Shown here: piece by piece, positions 10,425 to 11,902 of the stretch
Layout of the letters: every line of letters begins with the position of its first letter
Position numbering within the stretch: position 1 is the stretch's first letter
Assembly (NCBI RefSeq): GCF_013376475.1
Contig: NZ_CP045508.1
Location: 1,671,501-1,735,500 of the forward strand
From: Desulfolutivibrio sulfoxidireducens
GTDB lineage: Bacteria > Desulfobacterota > Desulfovibrionia > Desulfovibrionales > Desulfovibrionaceae
Length of the DNA: 64,000 nt
Direction: 5' to 3'
Translations under genes and position numbers: made by a program
Notes under the pieces: generated by a model
What the model was told of the DNA's origin: nothing
The model's database searches: none
The model's input: only the letters and a program-made list of their open reading frames with translations

Positions 10425-11228
10425 TTACGCGCGGTCCCCGAGCAGGACCATGGCCTCGTCCACGCTCCCATTGGCATGGACGATGAGATTGACGGCCTGG
10501 AGCAGTTTTTTCGGGTCGCGGTCCTGGAAGATGTTGCGGCCCACGGACAGCCCCTTGCCCCCGGCGTCCAGGGAGTCGCGGATCATGGTCAGAAACTCGC
10601 GGGTGGTCTTGGTCTTCGGGCCTCCGGCGATGACCACGGGCACGGCGCAGCCGCCGCAGACCGCGGCGAAGGAGTCCTTGTCGCCGGTGTAGGGCACCTT
10701 GACCACGTCGGCCCCGAGTTCCATGCCCACCCGGGCGCAGTGGGCCACCACCTCCGGATCGAACTCGTTTTTGATCTTGGGGCCCCGGGCATAGATCATG
10801 GCCAGCATGGGCATGCCCCAGGAGGCGGCGCTGTGGGTGATGCGGCCCAGGTCCTCGAGCATCCGGGACTCGGTTTCGTCGCCCAGGTTCACGTGGGTGG
10901 ACACGGCGTCGGCCCCCAGGCGGATGGCCTCCTCCACGGAACACACCAGGGTCTTGGCGTTGGGGTGGGGGGAGAGGCTGGTGCTGGCCGAGAGGTGGAC
11001 GATAAGGCCGATGTCCCGGCCCTTGGCCCGGTGGCCGCAGGGCACCACGCCCTTGTGCATGAGCACGGCGTTGGCCCCGCCCTCGACGATGCCGGTCACG
11101 GTGTCGCGCATGTTCTCGATGCCCTTGATGGGGCCGACGCTGACGCCGTGGTCCAGGGGGACGATGATGGTCCGGCCGGTGTTCCGGTTGAAGATGCGTT
11201 CGTTGCGGATGGTCTTTCCGATCTGCAT
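10425..11228 (-). CDS. 2-amino-3,7-dideoxy-D-threo-hept-6-ulosonate synthase (DhnA/class I aldolase family)
   Basis: 267 residues, close to the archaeal ADH synthase MJ0400 (273). This enzyme condenses an aspartate-semialdehyde and a 6-deoxy-ketohexose phosphate to start the archaeal route to 3-dehydroquinate, which Desulfovibrio uses instead of AroG/AroB. Visible are the [17 protein letters not shown] start ([19 protein letters not shown]), [11 protein letters not shown], the Schiff-base lysine in VVKVPYTGD, and IAGGPKT for phosphate. The class I fructose-bisphosphate aldolases share this fold, so glycolytic aldolase is the alternative. A leader rich in Tyr codons and a terminator just upstream favour aromatic amino acid synthesis. 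GGGAG lies 9 bases before the ATG. The partner 3-dehydroquinate synthase II is not in this window. Confidence 0.85.
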
Positions 11229-11282
11229 GGCGGCTCTCCCGTGTGGTTTGGCCTGAAGGGGCGGGGTGCGGCGGTTTGCAAC

Positions 11283-11316
11283 AAAAAAGGCCGCCGGCTT
11301 TTCTAGCCCGCGGCCC
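11283..11316 (-). terminator. Attenuator terminator between leader ORF and the aldolase gene
   Basis: On the minus strand a stem GGCCGCGGGC / GCCGGCGGCC (one mismatch, loop TAGAAAA) is followed by six T residues at 11288-11283. It lies 28 bases past the leader stop codon and 55 bases before the aldolase start. Its 5' arm has an alternative partner at 11366-11376 (see findings). Confidence 0.82.
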
Positions 11317-11490
11317 TTTGAGGCGGTGTGTGCGGTGTTCGGCTTACGCGGCCGTACACCCCGCCGGACCACGGGCGCAGGAATAGCCGTAATAATACGG
11401 ACCCTGGGCGGGGATGGCCACGGGCGCGGCGCAAAATGGCGTAAGACGATGCATGGCCTATGACTACGCCGGCTTTTGCGGGTCTGTCAA
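11306..11490 (-). promoter_or_regulatory. Putative tyrosine-responsive attenuation leader
   Basis: Minus strand, in order: TTGACA at 11490-11485 (no good -10), leader ORF 11454-11344 with Tyr codons, segment GCCCGTGGTCC at 11376-11366, then the terminator arm GGGCCGCGGGC at 11316-11306. These two 11-base segments can pair over their full length with two G-U pairs, which would be the antiterminator. A small hairpin CCGTA/TACGG covers the three consecutive Tyr codons. Confidence 0.65.
11344..11454 (-). CDS. Leader peptide with Tyr run (36 residues)
   Basis: The peptide begins [18 protein letters not shown] and then reads [11 protein letters not shown]. Tyr codons lie at 11397-11395, 11394-11392, 11391-11389 and 11385-11383, four in five codons. 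An in-frame TAG sits 6 bases before the ATG, which fixes the 5' limit unless the internal GTG is used. The ribosome-binding site is weak, so the mRNA may be nearly leaderless. The product has no likely function as a protein; its translation would report tyrosyl-tRNA supply to the downstream terminator. Confidence 0.65.
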
Positions 11491-11510
11491 GCCGGGAGAT
11501 GGCGGGACGT

Positions 11511-11864
11511 CTATTTCGGCGTCTCCACCAGGCCGCCCTCGATGATTTTTTTGGCCGTCTCCCGGTTGTCCGGGCCGGGAACCACGGTGTTCGGGCCCCA
11601 GTCCGCGTCGGGGTTCTTGATGAAGCGGCCATGGCCGGAGCCGCCCTCGGACTGCAGCCGCTCGGCCCGACAGGCGTTTTTGCAGGCCGGGCAGCTTGCG
11701 TTGCACAGTTTCGCGGCCAGGGCCGGGCTCCCCATCTCTGTGGAGGAATCGGTCACGTGGCAGATGACCGCGCCGTGTGGCCCCAGACAGGCGAACACGT
11801 CGGCCCGGGCCGGGGCGGCCAAGGTCAGAACAGCCAGAATCGTCACGACGGGCAGGGTCTTCAC
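11511..11864 (-). CDS. Small exported cysteine-rich protein, function unknown
   Basis: 117 residues from GTG 11864, chosen because AAGGAG lies 8 bases upstream. A classic signal peptide (KTLPVVTILAVLTLAAPARA) ends in an AxA cleavage site, so the mature protein is periplasmic. It has seven cysteines: one in FACLG, one in VICHV, and the cluster LCNASCPACKNACRA. There is no CxxCH heme motif. The cysteines could hold a metal cluster or disulfides; I cannot choose. It follows murA on the same strand by 38 bases and lies upstream of the aldolase leader. Confidence 0.75.
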   Translation of the reverse strand: MKTLPVVTILAVLTLAAPARADVFACLGPHGAVICHVTDSSTEMGSPALAAKLCNASCPACKNACRAERLQSEGGSGHGRFIKNPDADWGPNTVVPGPDNRETAKKIIEGGLVETPK

Positions 11865-11902
11865 GGCGTGGCTCCTTCGTTGTGTCGCGGCCCGTGGGCC
11901 GG

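Follow-up and report, generated by a model that had tools for sequence, protein, structure and literature searches.

A Predicted Tyrosine-Codon Attenuator before a Standalone ADH Synthase Gene of Desulfolutivibrio sulfoxidireducens and Related Leaders in the Desulfovibrionales

The Standalone ADH Synthase Gene and Its Leader

A stretch of 64,000 nucleotides (nt) from the genome of Desulfolutivibrio sulfoxidireducens (contig NZ_CP045508.1, positions 1,671,501 to 1,735,500), called the window below, was analyzed for the control of a gene encoding ADH synthase (2-amino-3,7-dideoxy-D-threo-hept-6-ulosonate synthase). On the minus strand a TTGACA box is followed by a short open reading frame (ORF), a hairpin with a T run (11316-11283) and the ADH synthase gene (11228-10425). 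This leader is a candidate attenuator responding to tyrosine. The following features were assigned in window coordinates.

11485-11490, minus strand: -35-like box TTGACA; its first base lies 36 nt before the leader ATG, a spacing conserved in relatives
11461-11466, minus strand: weak -10-like hexamer TAGTCA, spaced 18 nt from the -35-like box and with its end 6 nt 5' of the leader ATG; putative, from its spacing
11344-11454, minus strand: leader ORF of 36 codons containing PYYYGY, probably leaderless by its sequence and the promoter-box spacing
11383-11397, minus strand: predicted regulatory codons TAT TAT TAC GGC TAT (YYYGY), from the sequence and the Tyr-rich runs of related leaders
11366-11376, minus strand: segment 2, GCCCGTGGTCC, within the leader ORF, forming the left antiterminator arm by pairing with 11316-11306; from covariation
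11321-11365, minus strand: distal stem-loop of the antiterminator with the leader stop codon (11346-11344), from the predicted minimum-energy fold
11306-11316, minus strand: segment 3, GGGCCGCGGGC, 5' arm of the terminator, common to antiterminator and terminator; from covariation
11289-11298, minus strand: segment 4, GCCGGCGGCC, 3' arm of the terminator; from covariation
11283-11288, minus strand: T run of the intrinsic terminator, six T, from the sequence
10425-11228, minus strand: standalone ADH synthase gene, TIGR01949 match, ATG at 11228

An earlier note on this DNA had described a 36-codon minus-strand ORF with PYYYGY ahead of a terminator and an aldolase gene. This ORF was confirmed (11454-11344), and its four Tyr codons (11397-11395, 11394-11392, 11391-11389 and 11385-11383) indeed fall within five codons. 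At least four Tyr within five codons occurred in no other of the 387 small ORFs of the window and in 1 of 20,398 shuffled ones. The leader ORF does not contain any Trp codon. As a side observation, Tyr-type leaders favor TAT over TAC (77:35); five ORFs of the window favor TAC (11:32). A near-copy of segment 2 (GCGCCCGTGGCC) is located in the leader ORF at 11427-11416, 5' of the Tyr codons; no such copy was noticed in the leaders of the other two genomes from this genus.

The structural gene scored 379.8 bits against TIGR01949 and passed the curated cut-off of 299.45. It is flanked upstream by an ORF without a match to any Pfam family and by murA, and downstream by a convergent gene of the PRK04334 family; the ADH synthase gene thus stands alone. 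The upstream ORF lies on the same minus strand and stops 56 nt 5' of the leader ATG. The gene had been called the first of the archaeal-type aromatic pathway. This is correct in that it encodes the first enzyme of the pathway; it is, however, a standalone isozyme, and the operon copy is located elsewhere.

Pairing and Covariation of the Leader Segments

The predicted full pairing of 11316-11306 with 11376-11366 was found, with all 11 pairs present, two of them G-U. The hairpin CCGTA/TACGG proposed for the consecutive Tyr codons exists in this leader as well, but the pair CGTA..TACG occurs in only 11 of the 18 rows of the Tyr-type alignment A1. This hairpin covers the Tyr codons only and not segment 2, and the fold of the untranslated RNA forms the antiterminator. 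A simple promoter and terminator scan of the window did not list the hairpin 11316-11283, because its stem contains a G-G mismatch, and the number of terminators found was near chance (7 versus 5.0 expected). The terminator call is therefore based on conservation. Folding of the 251-nt region was only mildly unusual (z -1.5).

Helix pairing was counted in 18 Tyr-type rows (17 distinct) and in 84 leaders of all types, out of 136 leaders kept. In the Tyr-type alignment 90.9% of the antiterminator cells were paired versus 35-45% when the arms were slid, and 90.4% of the terminator cells versus 36-58%. The rows of g10 carry TT/AA/TT in segments 2/3/4 versus mostly CC/GG/CC elsewhere, a joint change at two positions. 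For the 84 leaders the values were 94.4% (37-44% slid) for the antiterminator and 92.0% (23-57% slid) for the terminator, with both sides changed at 6 and 8 pairs, respectively. Column 107 is complementary to segment 2 in 78 of the 84 leaders and to segment 4 in 29. It follows its antiterminator partner, not its terminator partner, so that selection on the antiterminator can be read from natural variation with unusual clarity. Read leader by leader, the key pair of segments 2 and 3 was G:C in 46 cases, A:T in 34, G:T in 16 and T:A in 8; none of the 104 readable leaders (of 136) was non-complementary. These covariation counts ignore relatedness; on the tree the two column traits change 10 and 7 times (58 rows). 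When segment 2 was swapped between genera, its own partner usually, though not always, paired better. An antiterminator helix that would exclude the terminator is thus supported by the covariation of segments 2 and 3.

The hairpin might also be a mere terminator of the upstream gene, with the Tyr ORF accidental. The same-strand ORF ending 56 nt before the leader ATG and a terminator scan not above chance would fit such a view. Since Tyr runs, promoter-box spacing and antiterminator covariation are conserved in several genera, it is hardly conceivable. Control by a T-box or riboswitch was considered as well, tyrosine operons of other bacteria being reported to use T-boxes in the accessible part of a survey (PMC1262725). 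The leader holds a coding Tyr run instead, and in a scan of 10900-11900 with Rfam none of the three matches at E ≤ 1 belonged to a T-box or riboswitch family. These three matches were weak, stayed below their family cut-offs and were taken as chance. Control of this kind is extremely unlikely.

Leader Classes in the Desulfovibrionales

At the thresholds used, 137 of the 149 family genomes and 269 of the 297 order genomes gave a match to the ADH synthase protein. From these, 183 loci were collected, which comprise all family matches listed and part of the order matches listed. By group code or record title all loci but one belong to the order; L161 is from an unplaced bin and is without leader (loci and genera are cited by code). 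A locus with aroB' within reach was taken as an operon copy by the script, which gave 109 operon loci and 74 others. Leader and terminator were kept for 136 loci, 93 operon and 43 standalone. In 40 loci the script found no aromatic leader or no terminator; these include L108 despite its clear Phe run. Seven weak ORFs (L158, L114, L133, L149, L031, L194, L152) were dropped by eye before the counts of 136 were made. Accordingly, 31 standalone loci have no kept leader, 25 by the script (one of them L108) and 6 by eye. The leader peptides of L156 and L157 are those of L009 and L019, and all four are counted among the 136.

The leader class was read from the ten-residue window richest in aromatic residues. 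Trp was present in this run in 88 of the 93 operon leaders, the remainder being Phe/Tyr (4) or Phe (1), and in none of the 43 standalone leaders, of which 26 were Tyr-rich, 15 Phe-rich and 2 Phe/Tyr. Summed over the run windows, operon leaders contained F340 Y230 W138 and standalone leaders F127 Y120 W0. The earlier note had suggested aligning orthologous upstream regions for a conserved Tyr run and covarying stems. Such runs were indeed found in the Tyr-rich standalone leaders, which come from six genera (g26 11, g10 6, g1 3, g37 2, g6 1, g32 1) and two named records that nearly duplicate two others, and segments 2, 3 and 4 covary. At least six aromatic residues in seven were encoded in 106 of the 183 upstream regions, compared with none of 1830 shuffles and none of 180 downstream stretches. 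With at least five in seven the numbers were 121 of 183, 7 of 1830 and 2 of 180.

A different explanation would be a TnaC-like leader peptide that responds within the ribosome to free tyrosine or some other ligand and not to tRNA charging. The ARG/ACG motif that often comes after the run would fit such sensing. This motif is explained by the base pairing of segment 2, since whether Arg, Cys or Ser is encoded depends on the pairing partner. Moreover, the length of the Tyr run varies, and in sister leaders Phe replaces Tyr or Trp is added, as codon reading predicts. TnaC-like sensing is therefore very unlikely.

Further observations concern other leaders. Phe-rich standalone leaders, with runs up to FFFFFFF, were found at L063, L089, L099, L117, L129, L132, L143, L146, L155 and other loci in genera g5, g14, g29 and g30. 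Tandem duplicates of ADH synthase head the operon at L104/L152, L126/L142, L098/L131 and L150/L115 (g22, g11, g16), with an aromatic leader only at the first copy. The operon copies of genus g39 (L086, L090-L092, L094, L096, L105) had no aromatic leader in the 400 nt examined; their control may differ.

Start of the Leader Transcript

The sequence TTGAC was present 35-39 nt upstream of the leader ATG in 125 of the 136 leaders, but in only 1 of 136 at this distance upstream of the structural gene. At the position of the -10 box relatives carry, for example, TATTTT or TATCCA. Shine-Dalgarno-like words preceded 125 of the 136 structural genes, but only 6 of the 125 leader ATGs with TTGAC at 35-39 nt. 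Owing to the fixed spacing of TTGAC and the scarcity of Shine-Dalgarno-like words, a start at the leader AUG is likely. Thus, the leader transcript most likely begins at or next to the leader AUG and would be leaderless. A start between leader ORF and gene is unlikely, as judged from the promoter-like box at a fixed distance. In five genomes of g41 TTGAC did not lie at 35-39 nt from the script-called leader start; the distance was 53-58 nt in four, and no TTGAC was found in one. At most loci outside the order, by the listed distances, TTGAC was not at 35-39 nt either. A consensus promoter scan of the window did not list the TTGACA/TAGTCA promoter. It listed a weak sigma-70-like match (9 of 12) within the leader ORF at 11420-11392, which is partly formed by the Tyr codons.

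Besides its attenuating role in cis, the leader might act in trans through its terminated RNA or its peptide, like rnTrpL and peTrpL of Sinorhizobium meliloti. The probable leaderless start and a terminator sequence strongly conserved in both copies and across the order would agree with such a role, for which the accessible part of the S. meliloti report (PMC7298713) provides a precedent. The need of segment 3 to pair with two partners can explain the conservation as well, and an additional action in trans appears improbable.

A Second Isozyme at the Head of the aro/trp Operon

The genome encodes a second ADH synthase, 66% identical to the first (G000:C1:751689-752489; locus L005, G000:C1:740000-754500, minus strand). 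It is the first gene of an aro/trp operon. Its leader, MRHLNLIPTSGFYFWYWFSHARGRGRGAV, carries the run FYFWYWF followed by the same segments and terminator as at the standalone gene. In this operon 3-dehydroquinate synthase II, prephenate dehydratase, aroA, trpG, trpD, trpB and trpA scored above the model cut-offs. Matches for tyrA, trpC and trpF remained below cut-off, and trpE was recognized by its Pfam domains. According to the accessible part of a report on D. hydrothermalis at high pressure, ten operon genes go down together. A third DhnA-type paralog (L003, G000:C1:1603716-1604465) is 40% identical and falls under the ADH_synth cut-off.

A covariance model of the leader gave 11 matches at E ≤ 1 in the genome of D. 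sulfoxidireducens. Two were convincing, the standalone leader (89.5 bits) and its operon paralog (61.6 bits). The other nine scored at most 30.7 bits, and the eight inspected were ordinary terminators or coding sequence.

A profile search of the genome gave no match for DAHP synthase (PF01474), AroB (PF01761) or TrpR, and its sole PF00793 match is KDO8P synthase. Since neither DAHP synthase nor AroB was matched, ADH synthase seems to be the sole way into the aromatic pathway in this genome. The attenuator of the operon isozyme would, by its codons, answer to a shortage of Phe, Tyr or Trp. With this paralogous attenuator the two isozymes would divide the signals between them.

Proposed Mechanism

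The leader ORF, the Tyr run, both helices, the promoter-box spacing and the isozyme-specific codon runs were established by sequence comparison. Judged by these features, the leader is very probably a ribosome-mediated transcription attenuator that couples the expression of one ADH synthase isozyme to the level of charged tRNA-Tyr. Transcription would start at or next to the AUG of the short leader ORF. When charged tRNA-Tyr is short, the ribosome would stop in the YYYGY run and leave segment 2, just downstream, free. Free segment 2 would capture the emerging segment 3, the terminator would be blocked and the ADH synthase gene would be transcribed. When charged tRNA-Tyr is ample, the ribosome would proceed to the stop codon inside the antiterminator and cover segment 2. 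Segments 3 and 4 would then pair and transcription would end. A ribosome stalled at low Tyr-tRNA and the resulting read-through into the synthase gene had already been proposed, and the comparison supports this proposal well. From it we infer the start point, the stalling and the capture of segment 3 during transcription; the tyrosine signal is deduced from the codons.

Several observations weigh against this mechanism. The -10-like TAGTCA is poor, and the promoter-like match at 11420-11392 could start transcripts beyond most of the Tyr codons. Trp occurs somewhere beyond the run window in 12 of the 43 standalone leaders. An independent-pairs test on the tree had 4 pairs, which were too few, and was not significant. 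The complementarity of segments 2 and 3 surpassed shuffles at p ≤ 0.01 in 85 of the 136 leaders and was weak in the standalone leaders of g10, g3 and g37 and in g21. Finally, equilibrium folding with segment 4 favored the terminator in 120 of the 136 leaders despite a ribosome on the first codon of the aromatic run; the other 16, the leader at 11344-11454 among them, switched. Capture of segment 3 during transcription must therefore be assumed, and the switch would have to be kinetic. Attenuators are generally held to be kinetic switches. In favor of the mechanism, segment 3 in folds without segment 4 had a mean upstream pairing of 0.76 when the ribosome was placed on the first aromatic codon, 0.55 on the last one and 0.35 on the stop codon; this is weaker evidence because segment 4 was omitted.

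Evolution and Spread beyond the Order

A protein tree was calculated from 119 rows with at most three loci per genus, type and leader class; L016, L156, L157, L171 and L172 were omitted, and L108 is labelled "none". It is a quick tree with several long branches and with support from the Shimodaira-Hasegawa-like approximate likelihood ratio test (SH-aLRT) only, without bootstrap. The Tyr-type isozymes of g1, g26, g10, g6 and g32 formed one group (SH-aLRT 97), and those of g37 were placed elsewhere. Phe-type isozymes also occupied two places, g5/g14/g29 (SH-aLRT 95) and g30 (92). Consequently, the codon run was apparently retuned at least twice.

Outside the order at least five aromatic residues in seven were found in 22 of 35 loci and at least six in 21, versus 12 and 0 of 1750 shuffles. 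FYFSYYYFW and YFYFWYYW are examples of such runs. Aromatic leader ORFs were present at L209-L223, L226-L228, L233, L236, L239 and L240, loci from other families within the phylum; the segments of the few that were read differ from those described above. In genome G492 (L214, L215) the operon leader has a run with Trp, and the second copy, which has no aroB' in reach, a run without Trp.

Comparison with Known Systems

The mechanism of the ribosome-mediated trp, pheA and his attenuators is well known. Like these, the present leader combines a short ORF containing codons of the controlled amino acid, an intrinsic terminator and a mutually exclusive antiterminator. It differs from them in its Tyr-specific run, in the archaeal-type ADH synthase it precedes and in a leader ATG at the predicted start without a Shine-Dalgarno-like word. 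Furthermore, the leader ORF includes segment 2, and its stop codon falls within the predicted antiterminator hairpin. The ADH route is otherwise known from archaea. Attenuators of trp, pheA and his operons are recorded in the accessible parts of two reports (PMC5343134, PMC1262725).

A Tyr-specific leader-peptide attenuator was not found in the literature searched, which covered titles and the openings of abstracts in a collection with few subscription papers and without the attenuator surveys of 2001 and 2004. Within this literature the tyrosine specificity and the place in an isozyme-specific set of switches are new; the mechanism itself is of a known kind. Taken together, it is probable that related attenuators of the Desulfovibrionales divide the signals among ADH synthase isozymes (Phe/Tyr/Trp for the operon copy, Tyr only or Phe only, each in two places of the tree, for standalone copies), that their leader mRNAs start at the AUG in most genera examined, and that the first Tyr-specific ribosome-mediated attenuator in the literature searched is described here. 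If so, tyrosine would join the amino acids read by leader-peptide attenuators, and isozyme-specific control of a committed step of the ADH route would have been built through duplication of an RNA switch and swaps of its codons. This would offer an explanation of how aromatic synthesis is controlled in a genome without matches for DAHP synthase, AroB and TrpR.

Table 7 of Song et al. 2005 (PMC1173090), as far as accessible, gives a putative attenuator before the Desulfovibrio vulgaris supraoperon aroA'>aroB'>aroQ-pheA>aroF>tyrA>[trp]. It shares gene family and position with the operon attenuator described here and is probably the same element. That entry is from a structure database; the accessible text contains the word "leader" 0 times and mentions no leader peptide, specificity, covariation or standalone Tyr isozyme. 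The same source lists further putative attenuators before Vibrio operons of the aroF-tyrA type. Rodionov et al. 2004, in the accessible text, use none of the terms tryptophan, aromatic and leader peptide. The Actinobacteria survey of 2005 (PMC1262725), in its accessible part, assigns attenuators to histidine, threonine and phenylalanine, and T-boxes to tyrosine.

For trpL of S. meliloti (PMC7298713) the accessible part reports that the leader ATG is the 5' end of the transcript, as is predicted here; the leader there is a Trp leader before trpE(G). As far as the accessible text of PMC5343134 goes, the first step in E. coli is likewise served by isozymes, AroF, AroG and AroH, each of which responds to an aromatic amino acid of its own. 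They belong, however, to the DAHP synthase family and are controlled by TyrR, TrpR and feedback inhibition.
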